DNA of 55,573 nucleotides. Source: a virus. Shown here piece by piece: positions 6,908 to 30,815 of this stretch; position 1 is the stretch's first letter, and each line of letters opens with the position of its first letter. The position numbers were made by a program, and so were the translations under genes. Where the stretch lies: positions 1 through 55,573 of the IMG/VR virus record IMGVR_UViG_3300036829_000239. One strand, written 5' to 3'. The notes under the pieces were generated by a model. That model had not been told where the DNA came from. It was given only the letters and a program-made list of their open reading frames with translations, and did no database searches.

Positions 6908-7065
6908 GCGCGGCAAGGACGCTCCCGGCCGCGTGCCCGGTGTGCGGCGCGGAGCCGCGCCGGCCGTGCCGGAGGCTGGAGAACACCTACGGCGCGCGGG
7001 TGCCGCGGGAGCTGTCCGCCGTGCACAGGCGGAGACAGGAGACCTTCGATGCCCGCTCAGCCTGA
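6904..7065 (+). CDS. Small zinc-finger protein, 53 aa
   Basis: GTG 6904 overlaps the preceding TGA. The protein has one CPVCGAEPRRPC knuckle (two Cys pairs, x2 and x6 spacing), then a basic helix with ELSAVHRRRQE. This is a common type of small actinophage zinc-finger protein with a conserved final His. Likely nucleic-acid binding; its location between ParB and DpdA is suggestive only. It overlaps the start of dpdA by 17 nt. Confidence 0.55.
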   Translation: MSAARTLPAACPVCGAEPRRPCRRLENTYGARVPRELSAVHRRRQETFDARSA

Positions 7066-7990
7066 CGGCGTGTGGCGGGTCCTGGTCTCCTACTGGTACT
7101 GGAAGAAGCGGGACCTCGGCAAGTTCGCCGGCTCGCCGTGCCCGGTCCGGCTGTTCGCCGACTCCGGCGCGTACTCCGCGCACACCCTGCGCGGCGGAGG
7201 GGAAACCATCCGGCGGGAAGACTACGCCGCCTGGCTGAAAGACTGGGGGCGGCACCTGACCGTGATGGCCAACCTCGACGTGATCGGGAATCCCCGCGAC
7301 ACCGCCAGGAACCAGCTGTGGTTCGAGGAGCGCGGCCTGCCCGTCATCCCCGTCTACCACGGCACGTCCCCGCTCGCGGAGCTGGAGGCGCTGTGCCGCG
7401 ACCACAGGTACGTCGCGGTCGGCGGCACCGCGTCGCTGCACGGCCGCAAGGCGCTGCTCGCGTTCACCGCGAAATGCGCGCTGATCGCCCGGGAGCACGG
7501 CGCGGTCCTGCACGGCTTCGGCCGGTCCGGTAACGAGGACCTGCTGTCCATCCCCTTCTACTCCGTCGACTCGTCCTCGTGGATGCAGGGCGCGCGGTTC
7601 GGGCAGCTGCAGGTGTTCGACGGCCGCCAGATCCGCTCCCTGCCCGTCGCGGAAGCGGTGAGGCAGCCCGTCCTGCTCCGGCAGCACGGCGCCGACCCGC
7701 AGCGGATGAGCCGGGCCGACTACGGCAACCGGGGCACCAGGTTCGGCTACAAGCGCCCGGAGGAGGAGTTCTGGCGGGAGAAGCACGAAAGCCTGTTCGT
7801 CGCCGCCGTCGCGTGGAAGCGGTTCGAGGCGTACCTCCGCCGCCGGCACGACGTCGCCCCGCCGCCCGGCCAGCCTGCCGCAGACCGGGGGACGGTCACC
7901 TGGTTCGCCGACGACGTGTTCCGCCACCACCAGCAGGCCATGCGCGCCGTCGCATGGCTGTCGGGAAAGGACGCCAGTGAAACCGCGTGA
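7049..7990 (+). CDS. dpdA: DNA 7-deazaguanine transglycosylase DpdA, 313 aa
   Basis: A member of the tRNA-guanine transglycosylase superfamily that exchanges guanine for a 7-deazaguanine (preQ0 or a derivative) in DNA. Family marks: FADSGAYSAHT (D38-S39-G40, base-recognition loop), MANLDVIGNP with the candidate nucleophile D77, GGTAS phosphate loop near residue 133, LHGFGRSG near 152, and the DSSSW block near 172. Length is near that of short phage DpdA proteins. ATG 7049 follows a purine-rich site. It is the first enzyme in a five-gene set that can make its own preQ0, so modification of phage DNA against restriction is the expected role. Confidence 0.88.
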   Translation: MPAQPDGVWRVLVSYWYWKKRDLGKFAGSPCPVRLFADSGAYSAHTLRGGGETIRREDYAAWLKDWGRHLTVMANLDVIGNPRDTARNQLWFEERGLPVIPVYHGTSPLAELEALCRDHRYVAVGGTASLHGRKALLAFTAKCALIAREHGAVLHGFGRSGNEDLLSIPFYSVDSSSWMQGARFGQLQVFDGRQIRSLPVAEAVRQPVLLRQHGADPQRMSRADYGNRGTRFGYKRPEEEFWREKHESLFVAAVAWKRFEAYLRRRHDVAPPPGQPAADRGTVTWFADDVFRHHQQAMRAVAWLSGKDASETA

Positions 7991-8981
7991 CCACTTCCGG
8001 TGCACCCTCCAGGACACCGGCAGCCCGCTCACCGCAGCCGCGGCGCTGCTGCCCGACATCGGGGTGGCCATGCAGCGCGCCCCCGGGCTCAGGCTGCCCC
8101 GCTGGGGCGCGGTCCTGCACCACGACCGGCGGACGGTGGACGCGCTCCGCCCGGTGCCGGTCCTCGGCGGGGCGTGGGCAGCGCACTACGCGCAGGACGA
8201 GCTGACCCACCCTCCCGGTACCTACGGGCCGCCGGAGCGGGCAGGGCTGCCCCCCGGCGCGTGCATGGCCTACTCCGGCGGGCCGGACTCGTTCATCCTC
8301 TGGCGGCTGCTCGGCCAGCCCCGCGCCGTGTACCTCGACGTGGGCAACGCCGCCGCCGGCGAGGAGCAGCAGCGGATACGGCTGACGGAGGCCGCCTACG
8401 GCGGCGGGTTCACCGCCGTCCCCGGCGGCCCGCCGATGCCGGAACTGCCGACCGGGTGGATCCCGTACCGCAACCTCCGGCTGATCCTCGCCTGCGCCCA
8501 GTTCTCCCCCGACGTCGTCCTCGGCCGGATCGCCGAGTGGGGGCCGGACAAGAACCCCTCGTTCTTCCGCCGGACCGAACGGCTGCTGGCGTCCTCCCGC
8601 GGCGGCCGCTTCCAGGCCGCCGCCGACCTCCCGAGGGTGAGGATCCACACTCCCGCCGGCCACCTCACCAAGACGCAGCTCGTCCGCCGGTACCTGGACG
8701 AGTTCGGCGGCGGCGGCGCCGCGGGCAGGGAACGCGCGGTGCGCGACCTGACGGACCTCACCTGGTCCTGCTACGGCCCCGGCCCCCGCTTCTGCGGCAA
8801 ATGCGGCGGCTGCTGGTGCCGGCGGGTCGCGTTCGACGGCAACGGGATAGACGAGTCAGGCCGGTACGAGCAGACGCCGGTCCGCGGCGACTACTACAAA
8901 CGGCTGCACCCGGCCGACTTCCGGCCGTCGATGGTGCCGATGTACATCAAAAGGGCGAGGGAAATGCGGGGCACGGGATGA
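7977..8981 (+). CDS. queC: 7-cyano-7-deazaguanine (preQ0) synthase QueC, N-terminally extended, 334 aa
   Basis: QueC converts 7-carboxy-7-deazaguanine to preQ0 with ATP and ammonia. The PP-loop SGGPDS is at residues 100-105, the PYRNLRLILACA segment matches the substrate-binding region, and the zinc site is Cys 265, 273, 276 and 279 with an extra Cys 281. Bacterial QueC is about 220-230 residues, so about 95 N-terminal residues are additional. They contain no N-terminal Cys or class-II amidotransferase features, so this is not a Gat-QueC. GTG 7977 overlaps dpdA by 14 nt. Confidence 0.87.
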   Translation: MKPRDHFRCTLQDTGSPLTAAAALLPDIGVAMQRAPGLRLPRWGAVLHHDRRTVDALRPVPVLGGAWAAHYAQDELTHPPGTYGPPERAGLPPGACMAYSGGPDSFILWRLLGQPRAVYLDVGNAAAGEEQQRIRLTEAAYGGGFTAVPGGPPMPELPTGWIPYRNLRLILACAQFSPDVVLGRIAEWGPDKNPSFFRRTERLLASSRGGRFQAAADLPRVRIHTPAGHLTKTQLVRRYLDEFGGGGAAGRERAVRDLTDLTWSCYGPGPRFCGKCGGCWCRRVAFDGNGIDESGRYEQTPVRGDYYKRLHPADFRPSMVPMYIKRAREMRGTG

Positions 8982-9391
8982 GCGACGAGAGCGGCTGGAC
9001 GATCTCCAAGACGTTCCGGTTCGACGCCAGCCACCAGCTTGCCGGGCTGCCGTCCGCGCACAAGTGCTCCCGGCTGCACGGCCACACCTACGCCGTGACG
9101 CTGACCCTGGCCGCCGCCGGGGTGAACGGCCCCGGCTTCGTCCTGGACTACGCGGACCTCGCCCCGTTCAAACGGTACGTAGACGAGCACCTCGACCACC
9201 GGCACCTCGGCTGCCAGCCGCTGTTCGACGCCGCCGGCAAGCCGGCGGCCGAGCCGGCGCTGAACTTCAACCCGACCGCCGAGCTGCTCGCCCGCCACCT
9301 CTGCGACGTCGCCGCCGGCTTCTTCGGCAGCCTCGTGCACTCGGTCGAGGTTAAGGAGACCGAGGCCACCTCGGCGGTCTGGTACCGGTGA
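8978..9391 (+). CDS. queD: 6-carboxytetrahydropterin synthase QueD, 137 aa
   Basis: QueD turns dihydroneopterin triphosphate into 6-carboxytetrahydropterin. Zinc ligands are visible: FDASHQL (His near 17) and RLHGHTY (two His near 32-34), with the catalytic Cys in HKCSRLHGH. LDYADL, LDHRHLG, NPTAELLARHL and the C-terminal VKETEATSAVWY all match the family. Full length. ATG 8978 overlaps the queC stop. A 151-nt GC-rich gap follows before queE, the only real gap inside the island. Confidence 0.9.
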   Translation: MSDESGWTISKTFRFDASHQLAGLPSAHKCSRLHGHTYAVTLTLAAAGVNGPGFVLDYADLAPFKRYVDEHLDHRHLGCQPLFDAAGKPAAEPALNFNPTAELLARHLCDVAAGFFGSLVHSVEVKETEATSAVWYR

Positions 9392-9542: not shown

Positions 9543-10340
9543 ATGGCTGTGCCAGGCACGGTGAAATATGAGAAAGACGGCTCCCGCCAGGCCGGGAACA
9601 CCCTCGTCGTCAACGAGGTCTACGGCCCCGTCTGGCAGGGCGAGGGGCCGTCCGCCGGCCAGTTCGCGTCGGTCGTCCGGCTGATGGGCTGCAACCTCGC
9701 CTGCCGGTGGCAGAAGCCGGACGGCACCGTGTCGGCCTGCGACGAGGCGCAGACCTGGGACGCCAGCCGGTACGACCTCCGCCGGCAGGCAAACCGGACG
9801 GAGACGGCGGAGATCGCCCGGCGGGCGCTGGCCTGCTTCCCGCACCTCGTCATCATCACCGGCGGCGAGCCGCTGCTGCACCAGCGGCAGCCCGGCTTCG
9901 GCGAGCTGGCCGGCCGCCTGCACCACGCCGGCGCCGCCGTCGAGGTCGAGACGAACGGCACGCAGGCACCCGCCGGCTGGTGGACGCCGCTCATCCGCCG
10001 GTGGAACGTCTCCCCCAAGCTGTCCTCCTCCGGCACCGGCCACCTCACCGCCGCGAACCCGGCCGCGCTGGAGTGGTTCGCCGGCGACCGGCGGGCGGTA
10101 TTCAAATTCGTGTGCACGAGCTGCGCCGACGTGGACGAGGTCGCCGGGGTGTGGATGCCGCGGTACGGCCTGCCGCCGGCGCGGGTGTGGATCATGCCGG
10201 CCGGCACCGCCGCCGCCGGGATCCTGGACACCGCCCGGGACATCGCCCCGTCCGTCCTGCACTACCGGCTCAACCTCACCCTCCGCCAGCACGTCCTCGT
10301 CTACGACGCCACCGGGGAGCCCCGTGACAGACGGACCTGA
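9543..10340 (+). CDS. queE: 7-carboxy-7-deazaguanine synthase QueE (radical SAM), unusual cluster spacing, 265 aa
   Basis: QueE converts 6-carboxytetrahydropterin to 7-carboxy-7-deazaguanine using a [4Fe-4S] cluster and SAM. NEVYGPVWQGEG at the start, the GGEP SAM motif (107-110), EVETNGT near 153 and NVSPKLSSSG near 172 are diagnostic. The usual CX3CX2C cluster motif is here Cys50-x3-Cys54-x11-Cys66, a 9-residue insertion between Trp56 and the third Cys. After it the sequence resumes as CDEAQTWD, the normal continuation. ATG 9543 has GTGAGGGGA before it. Confidence 0.87.
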   Translation: MAVPGTVKYEKDGSRQAGNTLVVNEVYGPVWQGEGPSAGQFASVVRLMGCNLACRWQKPDGTVSACDEAQTWDASRYDLRRQANRTETAEIARRALACFPHLVIITGGEPLLHQRQPGFGELAGRLHHAGAAVEVETNGTQAPAGWWTPLIRRWNVSPKLSSSGTGHLTAANPAALEWFAGDRRAVFKFVCTSCADVDEVAGVWMPRYGLPPARVWIMPAGTAAAGILDTARDIAPSVLHYRLNLTLRQHVLVYDATGEPRDRRT

Positions 10341-11889
10341 CCTGCCGCGGGCCGAGCCGGCCGCCGCGCTGCTGCTGTCCCGCCTCGGCATCGACATCAC
10401 CGGGCAGGACACCGCCCGCACCCCGCACCGGTTCTGCGCCGCGCTCGCCGAACTCACCCGGCACCTCCGCGACCCGTTCGACGCCGCCGCCGTCCTCGCC
10501 CGCCAGTTCGACCCGCCGTCCGGGCACCCGCAGATCATCGTCCTCAAGGACATCCGCTTCACGAGCCTGTGCCTGCCCAGTAAGCAGCTCGTGGACGCCG
10601 TCGGCGGCCAGAAGCGCGCCAGCGCCGTCACGGCCGGAGACAAGCTGTGGACGCTACATGACGGCCGTGCCGTCCAGACCACGGTCTCCGCGATCCAGTC
10701 CCGCCCGGCCCGTGAACTAGTGACGGTGACAACTGAGTCCGGGACGTTCACCTGCACTCCCGATCACCCGTTCGCCACGCCCGGCGGATGGCTGGAGGCC
10801 AAGGACCTTTCCGGCCAGATGGTCGAGTGGACGGCGCCACGGCAATTGCGCCGCCGCCGGTATCAGCCGACCACCGGCTACGACTTCGGCTACACGGTCG
10901 GTGCGGTGACAAGTGACGGCTCGGTCTCCGCCCGCGCAATCAGCTTCGTAGTCAATGATTTCGATTTCACCAAGCGATTCGCGGCGGCATTCACGCGGTC
11001 ATTCGGGGTAGAGCCGGAGATCGAGCCGGTCAGCCGTCCCAGCGGCTACAGCGGCCTGGATGCTCCCGGCTACCGGGTCCGCATCGTCTCGTCGTACCTC
11101 GCGGACCTGTTCAGGCAGTATCTCGGCGGCGACGCCCATCACATGAGGCAGCGGTTTCCCCGCGTGGTGCTAGCTGACCTGGAGACCTTCCTCGGCTTCC
11201 TCGACGGCTACATCGACGGAGACGGCTACCGGCCCTCCGGCAACAACGGGCGCTGGTCACGGTACATCGTGTCCGGTAACGAGCCATTTCTCCGGGAACT
11301 GGCCGAGGTGACGCACAGCCGGTCGTTTGCCCGGCACCCGTCCGGCACCACCCGGCTCGGAGTCGCCGACTCGTGGGTCCGGAAGCACGGCTTCGTTCCC
11401 GAATCACATCGCACGGACCTGGTGGAAAGCAAGTGGACCCGCGTGCTGTCCGTCCTGAACCGTGCCGCCACGGGCGGCAGGCCATTCACCGTCTACTCGT
11501 TCACCTGCTCGCCGTATCCGACATTCCTGGTCGGCGGCCACCTGTCACATAACTGCGAGCACCACATCCTCCCCTTCACCGGCACCGCGACGGTGGGGTA
11601 CCTGCCGCAGCCGGGAGCGAGAGTCGCCGGCGTGTCCAAGCTCGCCCGCCTCGTCGAGGGCTTCGCCGGCCGGCCGCAGATGCAGGAACGCCTCGGCCAG
11701 CAGATCCTCGAAGCGCTCGAAGGCAACCTCGCCATCCAGGGCGCCGGCTGCGTGATCGACGCGGCGCACACCTGCCTCACCCTGCGCGGCCCCCGCTCCG
11801 CCTCCGCGCACATGATCACCTCCCACCTCACCGGCTGCTTCCTGGAAGCCCCCGTCCGGCAGGAGTTCCTCGCCCTCGCCCGGGAGTAG
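10324..11889 (+). CDS. folE: GTP cyclohydrolase I FolE precursor with in-frame intein, 521 aa
   Basis: FolE catalyses the first step, GTP to dihydroneopterin triphosphate. Residues 1-82 and 411-521 are FolE. The N-part contains DTARTPHRFC and KDIRFTSL. The C-part contains CEHHILPFTGTATVGYLP, SKLARLVEGFAGR, QMQERLGQQI and HTCLTLRG. Zinc ligands would be Cys411, His414 and Cys484. The spliced protein would be 193 aa, normal for the family. An intein of 328 residues (10570-11553) separates SL from CEHH, so the enzyme cannot form its metal site until splicing. GTG 10324 overlaps queE by 17 nt. Confidence 0.9.
   Translation: MTDGPDLPRAEPAAALLLSRLGIDITGQDTARTPHRFCAALAELTRHLRDPFDAAAVLARQFDPPSGHPQIIVLKDIRFTSLCLPSKQLVDAVGGQKRASAVTAGDKLWTLHDGRAVQTTVSAIQSRPARELVTVTTESGTFTCTPDHPFATPGGWLEAKDLSGQMVEWTAPRQLRRRRYQPTTGYDFGYTVGAVTSDGSVSARAISFVVNDFDFTKRFAAAFTRSFGVEPEIEPVSRPSGYSGLDAPGYRVRIVSSYLADLFRQYLGGDAHHMRQRFPRVVLADLETFLGFLDGYIDGDGYRPSGNNGRWSRYIVSGNEPFLRELAEVTHSRSFARHPSGTTRLGVADSWVRKHGFVPESHRTDLVESKWTRVLSVLNRAATGGRPFTVYSFTCSPYPTFLVGGHLSHNCEHHILPFTGTATVGYLPQPGARVAGVSKLARLVEGFAGRPQMQERLGQQILEALEGNLAIQGAGCVIDAAHTCLTLRGPRSASAHMITSHLTGCFLEAPVRQEFLALARE
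10570..11553 (+). other. LAGLIDADG intein within FolE, 328 residues
   Basis: The intein starts with Cys (CLPSKQLV) and ends LVGGHLSHN followed by extein Cys+1, so all splice-junction residues are present (C1, penultimate His, terminal Asn, C+1). Block B is TCTPDHPF with the conserved T and H. Two LAGLIDADG-type helices with intact acidic residues are seen (FGYTVGAVTSDGSV near precursor residue 188; FLGFLDGYIDGDGY near 289), so the homing endonuclease looks complete. Codon use is slightly less GC-rich than the flanking FolE, consistent with mobile origin. Confidence 0.9.
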
Positions 11890-19140: not shown

Positions 19141-22100
19141 ATGGCGTTCAACGTCACCGCCACGTTCGGCACCGCCACTGACGGGGGGCTGCTCCGCGTC
19201 CTCGCGCTGACCGGCGCGGTCGAGGGCGGCGGCGCGGCGGCCGGGGCGTTCGCGTCGTCCGGCGCGGCGAAGTCCGTCATCACCCCGGTCTTCACCAACT
19301 CCTACATCGTCTACGTCAACGACTACGACAACTCCGGCACCGCCGGCACGTTCCTCGCGAACACCACGGCGATCGACAACCTGCACGTCGGCACCGTCGG
19401 GGAGTACACCGGGTTCTTCAACGGCACCGTCACCGCCGGCGCCGCCACCGCGGCGATCGGCGTGTCCGCGCCGACCGGGATCAACGGCTGGTGCCTGTAC
19501 GAGGTGCCGTCCAGCGGCGGGTCGACCCCGGTGCGGGACACCGTCAACGAGCCGGCGGCGCCGGCGTCGGCGTCCACCGGCACGTCGCTGACCGTGACGA
19601 CAGCGGGGAACTTCGCGGCCGGCACCGTGCTGGTCGCGCTGGTCGTGTGGGACGAGAACGGCGCCACCCCGGTTGCGCCGGCGGTGTCCGACACGTCCGG
19701 GCTCGGGCTGGCGTGGACGCTGCGCCGGCAGGCGGCCGGCGGCGACACCAGCTCGTGGATCTACACCGCGACGGTGCCGGCCGCCGCCGCGCCTCCCGCC
19801 GGCCGCCGCCAGCCCGGCGGCCGGCGGTACCGCCGGCGGTACCGCCGGCGGCAGCAGCCGGTCACGCCGGCGGCGGCGGCGGCCGGCACCACCTGGAACG
19901 GGGCCGCGTCCTGGGCCGGCACCGGCGCGCTCACCGCCGCAGCCGCGACCGCCCGGCCGCGCGCCGCGGCGCTGTCCGGCACCGGCGCGCTCGCCGCGGC
20001 GGGGGCCAAGACGGTGCCCGGCGCGGTCGGCTGGACGGGTACGGGCAGCCTCACCGCGGCCGGCACGCATGCCGGGGCGGCCGTCACGCTGGCCGCCGGC
20101 ACCCCGGTCGGCACCCAGCTCAGCACCAGCAACGCGTCCGCGATCACCGGCGCGTACGGGCAGACCCCGGCCGCCGGGAACCTGCTCGTTGCCGTGTACA
20201 CCGCCGCCGCGCTCGGCACCGGGGCGATGTCGGAGACGGTCACGCCGTCCGGGTGGGCGCCGCTGCTCGCCGGGCCGGTCTTCAACGCCACCGCCGGCTC
20301 CTCGAACACGTTCACCGACGCGTGGGTGCGGACCGCGACCGGCACCGGCACGGACCCGGCGCCGCAGTTCAACTTCGCCGGCGGCTCCGGGCACAAGCTG
20401 CAGACCGTCACCATCTTCGAGCTGGCCGGCGCGAACACCGCGTCGCCGCTGGACGACTCCGCCGCCTACCAGTCCGGCGGGTCCGCGGCCACCGTCGCCT
20501 TCTCGGTGACGACGGCCGGCGCCCCGGCCGGGCCGGGCGAATTCGCGATCTCCGCGTTCACGCAGGCCGACTCCGCCGTCGCGCAGGCGTGGACGGAGGG
20601 CAGCGGCTTCACCCCGGCGGCGTTCTACCAGTCCGGCACCAACGAGCTGGCCGCGCAGGTCAACTACAAGACAGCCCCGGCCGCCGGCGGGCCGGTCACC
20701 GACTCCGGCCAGTTCACCGCGAACACGTCGTCGTTCGGCGCCGGGCTGCTGCTCATGATCGCCGGGTCCGGGGCCGCCGCCCACCACGGCACGGCGGCAT
20801 GGGCGGGCACCGGCACGCTCGCCGCGGCGGGGGCCAAGACCGCCCCGGGCGCGGCCGGCTGGTCGGGCACCGGCACGCTGACCGCGGCCGGGGCGACCGT
20901 CCGGCCGCGCGCCGCCGGGTGGACGGGTGCCGGCACCGCCACCGTCACCGGGAACACGGCCCGGCCGCGCGCCGCCGCGTGGTCCGGCACCGGGTCCTCC
21001 GCGGCGGCCGGGCAGAAGACGGCCCCGGGTGCCGCCGGCTGGGTCGGCAGCGGGACGCTCACCCCGCAGCCGTCCGTCACCCGCACCCGCACCGCGGCGC
21101 TGTCCGGCGCCGGCACCTGGTCCGCCGCCGCCGTGCACTCCGCCGGCCACCCCGCCGCCGCCGCCTGGGCGGGCACCGGGACGCTCGCCACCGCCGGCCA
21201 GACCGCCCGGCCGCGCGCCGCATCATGGACGGGCGCCGGGTCGCTGGCCGCGGCCGGCGCCAAGACCGTCCCCGGCGCCGCCGCGTGGACCGGCGCCGGC
21301 AGCTGGACGGCCGCCGGCCAGGCCGCCCGGGCACGCGCCGCGGCGTGGACGGGGACGGGCACGCTGGCCGCCGCCGGGACGCGGACAGCCGGCATCACCC
21401 GCGTGCAGGACGTGTCCACCGGCAAGCTCACCACCCACACCGCGTCGTACACCATCCCCGTCACCTCGGCCGCCGGCCACGTGCTGACGCTGGCCACCGA
21501 GGCCTACCACAACGCGAACACGCCGTTCACCATCACCTCCGTCACCGACAGCGCCGGCAACACCTGGCGGTACCCCGCCGCGCAGAACAGCCAGAACCCG
21601 CCGTCCGCCGGCAGCTTCTACGCGGCCGGCGGGTACACGGCGCTCGCCGCCGTCGCCTGCTGCCTGAACGGCGACCAGGGCTCCGGGCAGGTGCAGGCCG
21701 TCACCCAGGTCACCGTCACGTTCTCCGTCGCCCTGTCCAACGGGGTGCTGTTCACCGTGCAGGAGTGGGGCAGCATCCCCGCCGGCCTGACCGTCGACGC
21801 CGCGGCGTCGTCCAGCACCCAGGCGACGGCGGCGAGCCTGGCGACCCCGGCGCTGACCCTCGCCGGCGGCAACGACATCGTGGTGGCCGAGGCGGCCGAA
21901 AACGTCGGCTGGACGTCGGTCGACGCGCCGTTCACGATGGTGGCCGGCTCGGACACCGGGTGGGTCATCACCAGCGCCGCCGGGACGGCGCAGGCCACCT
22001 TCCGGGGTACCAGCCAGGTGTACGAGGCGGCTGCGATCCTCGGCCTCGGCGTGGCCGGCGCCGGCCACGCCGCGACCGCGGCGTGGTCCGGGACGGGCAC

Positions 22101-23238
22101 GCTCGCCGCCGCGGCGGGCACGGCCCGGCCGCGCGCCGCGGCGTGGTCCGGGACCGGGACGGCCGCGGTCGCCGGCAGCACCACCCGCGTCCGCACCGCA
22201 TCGTGGCAGGGCACAGGATCACTGGCGGCCACGGCCCACAAGGCCATCCCCGGCGCGGCTGCCTGGAACGGCACGGGCACGTGGACGGCGGCCGCCGTCC
22301 ATTCCGGCCAGCACCCCGCCGCGGCGCCGTGGAGCGGCACCGGCGCGATGGCCGCCGCCGGCGGCACCACCCGGACGCGGACGGCAGCCTGGTCCGGCAC
22401 GGGCGCGCTCAGCCTTGCCCCGCATACCGCCCGGCCGCGCACCGCATCATGGGCCGGGACCGGCACACTGGGCGGGACGGCGCACAAGGCCGTCCCCGGC
22501 GCCGCCGCCTGGACGGGGGCCGGCAGCGCCGCGTTCAACGGCGTGCACTCCGGCCTGCACCCGGCGTCCGCGGCGTGGTCCGGCACCGGGCAGCTCACCG
22601 CCGGGCAGTCCGTCACCCGCGCCCGCACGGCCGGCTGGTCCGGCGCCGGCACCCTGACGGCCACCGCGCACAAGCAGGTCCCCGGCGCGGCCACCTGGAC
22701 GGGCGCCGGCACGCTCGCCGCGGCGGGAAGCAAGACCGTCCCCGGCGCGGCGGCCTGGTCCGGCACCGGCACCCTGACGGCCGCCGCCGTCCACTCCGGC
22801 ACGCACGCCGCGGCGGCGGCGTGGGCCGGGTCCGGGTCGCTCACCGCGGCCGGGCACAAGCAGGTGCCCGGCGCGGCGCAGTGGTCCGGGTCCGGGTCGC
22901 TCGGCGGTACCGGGCACAAGACGGCACCGGGCACCGCGCTGCTCACCGGTGCCGGCACGATGACAACCGGCCGGGTCGTCACCCGCAGGCGCACCGCCGC
23001 GTGGACGGGCGCCGGCACCCTGCACCTCACCTCCGTCGTCACCCAGCCGTCCACCCGGCTCGGCGGCCTCGCGGCCGGCGCGCCGCACGGCCGGTGGGCG
23101 GCCGGGGCACCCCGCGGCCGGTGGGCGGCCGGGGCACCCCGCGGCGGCGGCTGGGGAACTGACGGGGAGCCGCACGGGCGTTACGCTGCCAGTAGCCCGC
23201 ACGGCAGGTGGGCCGCCGGCGGAGAGCCGCACAGCTAG
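19141..23238 (+). CDS. Giant repeat structural protein (fibre-like), 1365 aa
   Basis: The domain order is: N-terminal beta domain (1-215), an Arg-rich low-complexity joint (about 218-240), repeat block 1 (about 249-315), globular domain (316-545), repeat block 2 (548-750), second globular domain (751-975), repeat block 3 (975-1296), and a C-terminal tail with five PHGRW/PRGRW-type motifs. Repeats have a period of about 20 residues with conserved W-[ST]-G-[TA]-G and an Ala-rich arm. The two globular domains resemble each other (NSAsn-rich, Trp and Gly). This is likely a long extended virion fibre or an adhesin. Start ATG 19141. Confidence 0.75.
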   Translation: MAFNVTATFGTATDGGLLRVLALTGAVEGGGAAAGAFASSGAAKSVITPVFTNSYIVYVNDYDNSGTAGTFLANTTAIDNLHVGTVGEYTGFFNGTVTAGAATAAIGVSAPTGINGWCLYEVPSSGGSTPVRDTVNEPAAPASASTGTSLTVTTAGNFAAGTVLVALVVWDENGATPVAPAVSDTSGLGLAWTLRRQAAGGDTSSWIYTATVPAAAAPPAGRRQPGGRRYRRRYRRRQQPVTPAAAAAGTTWNGAASWAGTGALTAAAATARPRAAALSGTGALAAAGAKTVPGAVGWTGTGSLTAAGTHAGAAVTLAAGTPVGTQLSTSNASAITGAYGQTPAAGNLLVAVYTAAALGTGAMSETVTPSGWAPLLAGPVFNATAGSSNTFTDAWVRTATGTGTDPAPQFNFAGGSGHKLQTVTIFELAGANTASPLDDSAAYQSGGSAATVAFSVTTAGAPAGPGEFAISAFTQADSAVAQAWTEGSGFTPAAFYQSGTNELAAQVNYKTAPAAGGPVTDSGQFTANTSSFGAGLLLMIAGSGAAAHHGTAAWAGTGTLAAAGAKTAPGAAGWSGTGTLTAAGATVRPRAAGWTGAGTATVTGNTARPRAAAWSGTGSSAAAGQKTAPGAAGWVGSGTLTPQPSVTRTRTAALSGAGTWSAAAVHSAGHPAAAAWAGTGTLATAGQTARPRAASWTGAGSLAAAGAKTVPGAAAWTGAGSWTAAGQAARARAAAWTGTGTLAAAGTRTAGITRVQDVSTGKLTTHTASYTIPVTSAAGHVLTLATEAYHNANTPFTITSVTDSAGNTWRYPAAQNSQNPPSAGSFYAAGGYTALAAVACCLNGDQGSGQVQAVTQVTVTFSVALSNGVLFTVQEWGSIPAGLTVDAAASSSTQATAASLATPALTLAGGNDIVVAEAAENVGWTSVDAPFTMVAGSDTGWVITSAAGTAQATFRGTSQVYEAAAILGLGVAGAGHAATAAWSGTGTLAAAAGTARPRAAAWSGTGTAAVAGSTTRVRTASWQGTGSLAATAHKAIPGAAAWNGTGTWTAAAVHSGQHPAAAPWSGTGAMAAAGGTTRTRTAAWSGTGALSLAPHTARPRTASWAGTGTLGGTAHKAVPGAAAWTGAGSAAFNGVHSGLHPASAAWSGTGQLTAGQSVTRARTAGWSGAGTLTATAHKQVPGAATWTGAGTLAAAGSKTVPGAAAWSGTGTLTAAAVHSGTHAAAAAWAGSGSLTAAGHKQVPGAAQWSGSGSLGGTGHKTAPGTALLTGAGTMTTGRVVTRRRTAAWTGAGTLHLTSVVTQPSTRLGGLAAGAPHGRWAAGAPRGRWAAGAPRGGGWGTDGEPHGRYAASSPHGRWAAGGEPHS
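19888..20085 (+). repeat. Repeat block 1 in the giant protein gene
   Basis: About three 60-bp units encoding W-x-G-T-G-x-L-x-A-A-(A/G)-x(3-4)-PRAAA/PGAVG. Confidence 0.6.
20785..21390 (+). repeat. Repeat block 2 in the giant protein gene
   Basis: About ten 60-bp units; one unit is two residues longer (AVHSAGHPAAAA). The codons GGCACCGGCACGCTC or close variants recur in most units. Confidence 0.65.
22065..23035 (+). repeat. Repeat block 3 in the giant protein gene
   Basis: About sixteen 60-bp units, with the AVHSG-H-insert units recurring every few repeats, giving a higher-order pattern. Confidence 0.65.
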
Positions 23239-28283: not shown

Positions 28284-30815
28284 ATGACCAGCGAGCGGCT
28301 CCCGGCCCCTTCCCCGGATGCCGCGGCCGGGCGGAGCGACGGGCAGTTCACCGCCGGGCTGGCCCACGAGAAGGTCGGGCACACCGGCCAGGGACTCTGG
28401 CATCACAAGAACATGCAGCTCCCGGCGTACATCCAGCACATCGCCAACGACCTCATCCAGGGCGGCATGGCCGAGTCCCGCGCCATCGCCACCGCCGTCT
28501 CCCGGTGCAAGGTGTGGTGCGCCGGCGGCGGCGGCGTGAAACCGGACACGAAGGCGAAGGCGTGCGCGGCCATCGCGGAGTGGGAGAAGCTGAAGGTGCA
28601 GTCCCATGCGGCCGGCGGCGGCCCGGCGACGGCGGAGGAGGCCGCCGCGGGAGCAGGCGCGGCGGCATGGAACGAGGCGCTGCACCCGCGCGTCCCGTCC
28701 GGCGCCGGCGGCGGCCAGTTCGCCCCGGGCGGCGGCGGGAAGGCGCCCACCAACGCGAACCCGGTGGGCAACGGCGCGGGCGGCCAGACGGTGACGGACC
28801 TGCAGAAGCGGCTGAACCAGCTCGGCTACAAGGTGAAGACGGACGGCAAGTTCGGCGGGAAGACCGAGGCCGCGGTCAGGCAGTACCAGAAGGACCGCGG
28901 GCTGAAGGTCGACGGGCTGGTCGGGCCGAAGACCACGGCGTCGCTGCGGTCCCCGTCCCGCAAGCGCACCACCAAGCCGGGGCAGCCGCCGGGGCCGGGC
29001 CGGAACCCGACGCCGCAGCAGCAGCTCACCCGCCGCGCCGCCGCCCCGGCGCTGGTCACGATGCCGGGCGTCGACCTGATGGCAGCCGGGTCGTGGGAGC
29101 TGTCCACCGGCAGGCAGACGTTCACCCGGCAGGACATCGCCGACGCGATCGACGCGGCCGGGTGCCCGGCGGTCGGCGACCCGGTGATCAAGCTCGGGCA
29201 TGTCGACCCGCGGTTCGACGGGCAGCCCGCGATCGGCCGGGTGACGAACCTGCGCACCGACGAGTCCGGGATGAAGCTGGTCGGGGACCTGGCCGGGCTG
29301 CCCGGCTGGTTCGCGGAGATCGCCGCCGCCGCCTATCCCCGCCGGTCGGTGGAGGGTGCGTACAACTTCCGCTGCCAGACGGGGCATAAGCACCCGTTTG
29401 TCCTGACGGGCCTGGCGATGCTCGGCGTGACGGCGCCGGGGGTCGGGGTGCTGAACGAGCTGCCGGACGTCGCCGCGCTGTACGGCGTGCAGGCCGAGGC
29501 GCGGGGTGAGGGCGAGTCGTGGCGGTTCGCGTCCGACAACCTGGATGAGGAGGGTGAGCCGGTGGCTGTTACCGAGGAAGACGTGCGCCGCGCCTACTAC
29601 GCGGCCGGCGCGCCGCCGGACTGGTGGATCGCCGAACTGCACATGACCCCGACGCAGCTCATCGTGAGCGCGGGGGACGGGAGGATCTACCGGGTGCCGT
29701 TCCGCATCGCGGGGCAGGACGGCATCGAGTTCGAGCAGCCGGTGGAGCTGGCGTCGTACCAGGACGTGGCGGCAAGCCGGGCGACGGGCGCGGTGATCAC
29801 GTACGCGAGCGCGGCCGACTCCCGCAGCCTGGGCGGCGAGGACGGGGACGACGGGGATGCCGGGGACGACGGGGATGCCGGGGACGGCGACAGCGCGGCG
29901 GCGGCGGCGGACTCCAAGCCGTACGGCGACGTGAAGTACGCCGACCCGAAGAACGGCAAGTACCCGGTCGACACCGAGGCCCACGCGCGCGCCGCCTGGA
30001 GTTACATCAACCAGGACAAGAACGCGGCCCAGTACCCGATGAACGGCGTGACCCTCGCCGAGGTGAAGGCCGCGATCGCCGCGGCGTGCAGGAAGTTCGG
30101 CATCGACGTGAACGCCGCCGCCTCCGACGCGCCGGCGCTGGACGGCGACGACATGACCGGCGACAGGAACAACGCCGCGATGTCCCACGGGCCGGTCGCC
30201 GCGACCCACAAACATCCGCATGCGGCGATGGGATCGCAGGGCGGCGACAGCACGCACGACCACTCGCACACCCACAAGGGTGACGCGAGCCACGACCACG
30301 CCCACGCATCCGCGTCGGCAGGCAACAGGACAAGGAAGGGAGGCTCGGAAGTGGATTTCACTGACGAGCAGATCGCCAGCCTGCGCGAGAAGCTGGGGCT
30401 GGGCGAGGACGACGAGCTGACCCCGGACGCGCTGATCGCGGAGCTGGGCAAGGAGCCGGTGGCCGCGTCGGGCCGGAAGCTGCCCGCCGGCGTAATGCTG
30501 GTGGAACGCGAGGCGTGGGACGCAATGAACCGGCGGGTCGAGGCCGGCGAGCAGTTCCGCGTCAAGAAGCAGCATGAGGAACGCGACGAGATCATCGACC
30601 GGGCGGTCCGCGACGGGAAGTTCTCCGCCGCCCGCCGGACGCACTGGGCGCGGCTGTGGAACGCCGACCCGGACGGCACCCGGGAGGTCCTCGCCGGCCT
30701 GCAGAAGAACGTCGTCCCGGTGGGCGACATCGGGTCCGGCGGCGGCAGCCTCGACGACGACGACTTCGACCGGGAGTTCGCCGCGCTGTGGGCTCCGGGC
30801 ACCTTCAAGAAGTGA
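28284..30815 (+). CDS. Multidomain capsid maturation protease/scaffold, 843 aa
   Basis: The order is: a lysis/structure-like N-terminus with a LPAYIQHIANDLIQGG repeat domain (40-105), a peptidoglycan-binding (PG_binding_1) domain (169-226: DLQKRLNQLGYKVKTDGKFG, then KVDGLVGPKT), a Mu I-type protease-like domain (262-396: GSWELSTGRQTF, IKLGHVDPRF, PAIGRVTNLR), an acidic linker, a DUF6582-like domain (549-610: KYADPKNGKYPVDTEAH), a His-rich stretch (634-676), and a helical C-terminal scaffold (690-843). It sits where head protease/scaffold genes usually are. GAGGAGG precedes ATG 28284. A peptidoglycan-binding domain in this protein is unusual. Confidence 0.7.
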   Translation: MTSERLPAPSPDAAAGRSDGQFTAGLAHEKVGHTGQGLWHHKNMQLPAYIQHIANDLIQGGMAESRAIATAVSRCKVWCAGGGGVKPDTKAKACAAIAEWEKLKVQSHAAGGGPATAEEAAAGAGAAAWNEALHPRVPSGAGGGQFAPGGGGKAPTNANPVGNGAGGQTVTDLQKRLNQLGYKVKTDGKFGGKTEAAVRQYQKDRGLKVDGLVGPKTTASLRSPSRKRTTKPGQPPGPGRNPTPQQQLTRRAAAPALVTMPGVDLMAAGSWELSTGRQTFTRQDIADAIDAAGCPAVGDPVIKLGHVDPRFDGQPAIGRVTNLRTDESGMKLVGDLAGLPGWFAEIAAAAYPRRSVEGAYNFRCQTGHKHPFVLTGLAMLGVTAPGVGVLNELPDVAALYGVQAEARGEGESWRFASDNLDEEGEPVAVTEEDVRRAYYAAGAPPDWWIAELHMTPTQLIVSAGDGRIYRVPFRIAGQDGIEFEQPVELASYQDVAASRATGAVITYASAADSRSLGGEDGDDGDAGDDGDAGDGDSAAAAADSKPYGDVKYADPKNGKYPVDTEAHARAAWSYINQDKNAAQYPMNGVTLAEVKAAIAAACRKFGIDVNAAASDAPALDGDDMTGDRNNAAMSHGPVAATHKHPHAAMGSQGGDSTHDHSHTHKGDASHDHAHASASAGNRTRKGGSEVDFTDEQIASLREKLGLGEDDELTPDALIAELGKEPVAASGRKLPAGVMLVEREAWDAMNRRVEAGEQFRVKKQHEERDEIIDRAVRDGKFSAARRTHWARLWNADPDGTREVLAGLQKNVVPVGDIGSGGGSLDDDDFDREFAALWAPGTFKK

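Follow-up and report, generated by a model that had tools for sequence, protein, structure and literature searches.

What is a 328-codon insertion doing in the FolE gene of a phage, directly before the cysteine of the CEHH motif, and how did it get there? We examined this locus in the window, the whole stretch of 55,573 nucleotides that was analysed (IMG/VR virus record IMGVR_UViG_3300036829_000239). We conclude that the insertion is very probably a mobile class 1 LAGLIDADG intein, which splices to leave FolE and has homed between bacterial and phage folE at one fixed site.

The FolE precursor gene and its insertion

The gene lies in a group of 7-deazaguanine genes, with the following features.

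7049–7990, + strand: DpdA-like transglycosylase gene (phrog_887, 2.8e-38)
7977–8981, + strand: QueC-like gene (PF06508, 2.8e-9)
8978–9391, + strand: QueD-like gene (PTPS, 2.3e-24)
9543–10340, + strand: QueE-like gene, overlapping the start of folE (phrog_2076, 1.6e-48)
10324–11889, + strand: FolE precursor gene, 521 aa from a GTG start (open frame without internal stop, Pfam)
10324–10569, + strand: N-extein of FolE, residues 1–82, ending IRFTSL (Pfam, alignment)
10570–11553, + strand: intein, 328 aa, with Hint splicing domain and LAGLIDADG homing endonuclease (motifs, Pfam, predicted fold)
10570–10572, + strand: Cys1 of the intein, block A, CLPSKQ (invariant in 50/50 relatives)
10756–10767, + strand: block B, TPDH, intein residues 63–66 (T63 and H66 invariant in 50/50)
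10888–10926, + strand: first LAGLIDADG motif, GYTVGAVTSDGSV, acid D116 (motif assignment)
11197–11226, + strand: second LAGLIDADG motif, FLDGYIDGDG, acid D218 (motif, Pfam)
11485–11553, + strand: blocks F and G, FTVYSFTCSPYPTFLVGGHLSHN, with invariant Cys313, His327 and Asn328 (relatives' alignment)
11554–11886, + strand: C-extein of FolE, residues 411–521, starting CEHH (Pfam, alignment), followed by the stop codon at 11887–11889
11554–11556, + strand: Cys+1 (Cys411), at the position of zinc ligand Cys110 in E. coli FolE (alignment)
11773–11775, + strand: Cys484 of FolE, in the HTC motif, another expected zinc ligand (present in the sequence)

The exteins match Pfam GTP_cyclohydroI (PF01227, 2.1e-42), and this family profile and the Cys, His and Cys zinc-ligand positions mark FolE as a GTP cyclohydrolase IA. 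The insert occupies residues 83–410 (984 bases, in frame), with the junctions IRFTSL/CLPSKQ on the N side and HLSHN/CEHHILPF on the C side. It matches LAGLIDADG_3 (PF14528) at 4.7e-6, above the cut-off, and the Hint families below threshold. Once joined, the exteins can be aligned with intact phage FolEs with no gap where they meet, so the insertion has no counterpart in these homologues and its flanks join to an intact protein, as in class 1 inteins. The closest are L012 (62%) and L013 (57%), in which inspection of the open reading frames gives the gene order QueD-QueE-FolE. Matches of the FolEs of phages Rinkes, Funsized and Typha that run into the C-terminus of the intein (query residues 389–410) were rejected as fortuitous, since the FolEs of these phages carry no insertion.

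In an alignment with E. coli FolE (1fbx/1gtp) the C-extein starts at residue 110; zinc is bound in that enzyme by Cys110, His113 and Cys181. Since Cys411 aligns with Cys110, the +1 nucleophile of splicing is also at a zinc-ligand position, and the other expected ligands are present as His414 and Cys484. The alignment thus places the intein directly before the zinc-ligand cysteine of CEHH. An earlier note, drawn from the letters of this DNA, had described a FolE insert with an N-terminal Cys, a TPDH block B, two LAGLIDADG motifs and an HN/C junction, and had taken the extein Cys+1 for the first zinc ligand; its coordinates and motifs were correct, the predicted fold agrees with the intein assignment, and the ligand claim is borne out by the alignment. 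The uninterrupted relatives and the homology to known inteins that it proposed looking for were both found.

The same note had placed folE in a 7-deazaguanine cassette, and the neighbours identified with Pfam and PHROG agree: FolE, QueD, QueE, QueC and DpdA-like genes lie together in what is predicted to be a phage 7-deazaguanine DNA-modification cassette. All seven further viral records tested carry a DpdA-like gene as well, both the five that have the FolE intein and the two that lack it, so the phage hosts of this intein are 7-deazaguanine cassettes. The virus is a tailed phage by its portal gene, with best matches mostly to Gordonia, Mycobacterium and Arthrobacter phages, and is a virus of high-GC bacteria. 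Elsewhere in the window, a 1365-aa open frame (19141–23238) has no Pfam match and one weak PHROG match, and an 843-aa open frame adjoining the portal gene (28284–30815) has a peptidoglycan-binding domain and DUF6582. A related intein-bearing viral contig has an upstream TnpB-like (IS605 OrfB) frame, judged by eye (L011:2137–3339), and the record of another FolE-intein viral contig, L021, holds two adjacent DpdA-like stretches with an in-frame stop in each (G210:C1:121777–123730).

Eight intein residues (C1, T63, H66, C313, F319, G323, H327 and N328) are kept in all 50 aligned relatives, and the joint retention of C1, T63, H66, H327 and N328 places the insert far beyond chance. The insert has a nucleophile at residue 1, TxxH in block B, a C-terminal HN and Cys at +1. 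Cys1, present in 50/50, makes the intein class 1 and rules out class 3, which has no residue-1 nucleophile and a WCT triad. Block F residue 310 is Ser in the window intein and in 45/50 relatives; class 1 inteins usually have aspartate there. Cys313 (11506–11508), also in block F, is outside the standard splicing residues despite its invariance.

An AlphaFold2 model of the intein built on the relatives' alignment (mean pLDDT 91.6, pTM 0.83) has a Hint fold plus a LAGLIDADG domain. Foldseek with this model placed homing-endonuclease inteins on top (TliVMA, 7qsu, E 1e-19), followed by LAGLIDADG enzymes such as I-DmoI, and the predicted splicing part superposes on the Mtu RecA intein (2in0) with Z 19.7 and an rmsd of 1.7 Å over 131 residues. 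A search of PDB sequences with the single intein sequence gave nothing significant; the family profile matched solved inteins. Both LAGLIDADG motifs carry their catalytic acids, as expected of a homing endonuclease; the LAGLIDADG acids are kept in 38–40 of 41 full-length relatives, D116 in 39 and D218 in 40. Across six pairs of relatives dN/dS is 0.06–0.19 in the endonuclease part as in the splicing part, which indicates that selection also acts on the endonuclease.

As a long branch separates the window intein from its relatives, we infer its activity from them. It is very improbable that this phage carries an intein that has decayed or can no longer splice, with FolE activity supplied by the host; the host likely has its own FolE, but the reading frame is open and all invariant splicing residues, both endonuclease acids and the zinc-ligand positions of the exteins are intact.

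Distribution and descent of FolE inteins

To place the intein among other folE genes, we scanned 84,980 prokaryote species, at one genome per species, together with IMG/VR, using a degenerate DNA pattern for the junction HN/C(E/D/A)HHxxPF, which needs HN before the Cys and misses inteins with other ends. Insertions at the same folE site were found in 61 bacterial contigs, mainly from Pseudonocardiaceae and Rokubacteria but also from several other phyla, and in 14 viral contigs. When translated, each of these stretches encoded FolE, its Cys immediately preceded by intein blocks F and G; the N-junction was located in 67/75, the others being cut off by the stretch fetched. The FolE intein belongs to a large allelic family and not to one phage. 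The setting in a phage folE described in the earlier note stands, but the insertion is not phage-restricted, as the family also occupies bacterial chromosomal folE. A two-sequence profile scan of bacterial genomes selected by peptide patterns gave no match.

Intein lengths fall into three groups: 322–340 aa (one of 296) with LAGLIDADG, mini-inteins of 141–192 aa, and phage forms of 256–279 aa. The last group and one mini form of 161 aa share only 16–28% identity with the window intein and match Intein_splicing in 8/8 and HNH_3 in 6/8 members, so they form a separate lineage at the same site. These eight IMG/VR contigs (L014, L015, L016, L018, L019, L025, L026 and L027) thus hold a distinct, mostly HNH-type intein at an identical FolE position. 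The shortest of the set, a 141-aa intein with a TPHH-like block B in a Poribacteria contig (L033:710–1132), is possibly near-minimal.

An IMG/VR scan for FolE sites that did not require HN gave at least 120 sites, and 80/80 among the matches listed were uninterrupted. In about 24 of 200 sampled Pseudonocardiaceae species a strong intein match was found (13 full-length, 11 mini), a count made by match strength, with the location in folE not confirmed for each. The earlier note had supposed that loss of the insertion would be hard; this does not make it fixed, given the sporadic presence in that family and an endonuclease part that is often lost, as in the mini-inteins. In four of ten intein-bearing bacterial genomes examined (Actinokineospora globicatena, a Rokubacterium, Nitrospira sp. 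CR1.3 and Crossiella sp. S99.2), the intein-bearing copy was the sole FolE found, with no other FolE and no FolE2. Provided that no second gene is missing from these assemblies, splicing of the precursor is a necessity in those genomes. The intein-bearing folE has FtsH as its neighbour in Crossiella; in Nitrospira and in one Gemmatimonadote the neighbour is a PTPS/QueD gene.

Between the window intein and a Crossiella chromosomal counterpart the identity is 61%, against 38% for the FolE exteins; across the full-length actinobacterial chromosomal members of the sister clade the values are 53–61% for inteins and 33–43% for exteins. The unrooted intein tree groups the window intein with 14 inteins of actinobacteria (support 94/85) and the L011/L020 phage intein with Gemmatimonadota (93/84). 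The extein tree, in contrast, places the window FolE among empty-site phages (100/86 and 100/98), and an AU test rejects a single clade of window and actinobacterial exteins (p 1.2e-53). The same test left a common origin of the L020 and Gemmatimonadota exteins unrejected (p 0.13), so a second transfer there is only a possibility. Given the conflict between trees and the gap in identity, the simplest reading appears to be that the intein homed between bacterial and phage folE. An unrooted tree does not fix the direction; a move into the phage from an actinobacterial lineage is favoured. The GC3 of the intein (0.83, against 0.94–0.98 for the exteins and four other genes) fits a foreign origin. 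Low intein G+C as proof of recent arrival was weakened, as about 4.5% of equal window stretches are equally low.

Could the intein instead descend vertically with folE, from an ancestor shared by the phage and bacterial genes, with losses elsewhere and no homing? Intein identity does rise with extein identity among full-length members (r 0.78), which means that a large part of the family has been passed down along with its gene. Yet this origin is very improbable for the window intein, in view of the intein–extein disparity with Crossiella, the grouping of its extein with empty-site phages and the AU rejection.

Predicted splicing and homing

The mobile class 1 intein would act as follows. The phage would make a 521-aa FolE precursor, in which the Hint domain attacks via Cys1, the N-extein is passed to Cys411 and Asn328 cyclises, leaving a seamless 193-aa FolE. 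The spliced enzyme would then start the phage 7-deazaguanine pathway (FolE, QueD, QueE, QueC, DpdA). The codons flanking the insertion site are conserved, and it is near the CEHH codons, also conserved, that the endonuclease would be expected to cut a folE lacking the intein, after which repair copies the intein in. That the insert is instead an extra FolE domain, retained and never removed, is hardly credible: in-frame phage insertions identifiable as neither intein nor intron exist, such as the ShiLan element in a methylase (PMC11855218), but this insert has the Hint fold at the Z score given above and complete splice-junction residues, and its position right before a zinc ligand is expected to ruin the active site.

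The coincidence of Cys+1 with a zinc ligand of the product, together with the invariant extra Cys313, raises the improbable idea of metal- or redox-sensing control, whereby splicing would set the timing of FolE activity and hence of folate synthesis or phage DNA modification. The mycobacterial DnaB intein is blocked by zinc and by oxidation (PMC7360933).

These results extend the intein map by one host protein and one insertion site, for which the record is unusually complete (alleles of full length, mini alleles, empty alleles, and two separate lineages at one site), and provide a well-supported case of an intein common to bacterial folE and a phage DNA-modification gene. With an active-site ligand serving as the extein nucleophile, splicing could be followed simply through FolE activity, and this phage with its relatives in bacteria would be a natural system for studying host–virus homing.

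Comparison with known systems

In the open literature searched, we found no report of a GTP cyclohydrolase I (FolE) that carries an intein. A survey of mycobacteriophages describes inteins in DNA-modification and nucleotide-metabolism proteins, near active centres, and lists portal inteins (PMC5050341); the word cyclohydrolase is absent from its main text. The FolE insertion site is thus apparently unreported, in a kind of mobile element already known. Searched with the intein, annotated phages and plasmids gave portal-protein matches alone, or none; the best were the portal proteins of cluster C mycobacteriophages (Gizmo, ET08, Colt), at about 30% over 212 residues, in another host protein and at another site. 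The 7-deazaguanine cassettes of mycobacteriophages Rinkes and Typha and of Sphingomonas phage MMDA13 have FolE beside QueD, QueE and DpdA-type genes, as in the window, but unlike the window their FolE has no intein at CEHH/CAHH. The Mtu RecA intein shares the splicing fold at 21% identity, in a different host protein. The archaeal VMA inteins (TliVMA 7qsu, PhoVMA 7qst) and yeast PI-SceI have the same architecture as the window intein, a Hint domain split by a LAGLIDADG endonuclease, with Cys1 and a C-terminal HN; the window intein differs from them in host protein and site, is shorter, and shares 12–18% identity with them in structural alignments.
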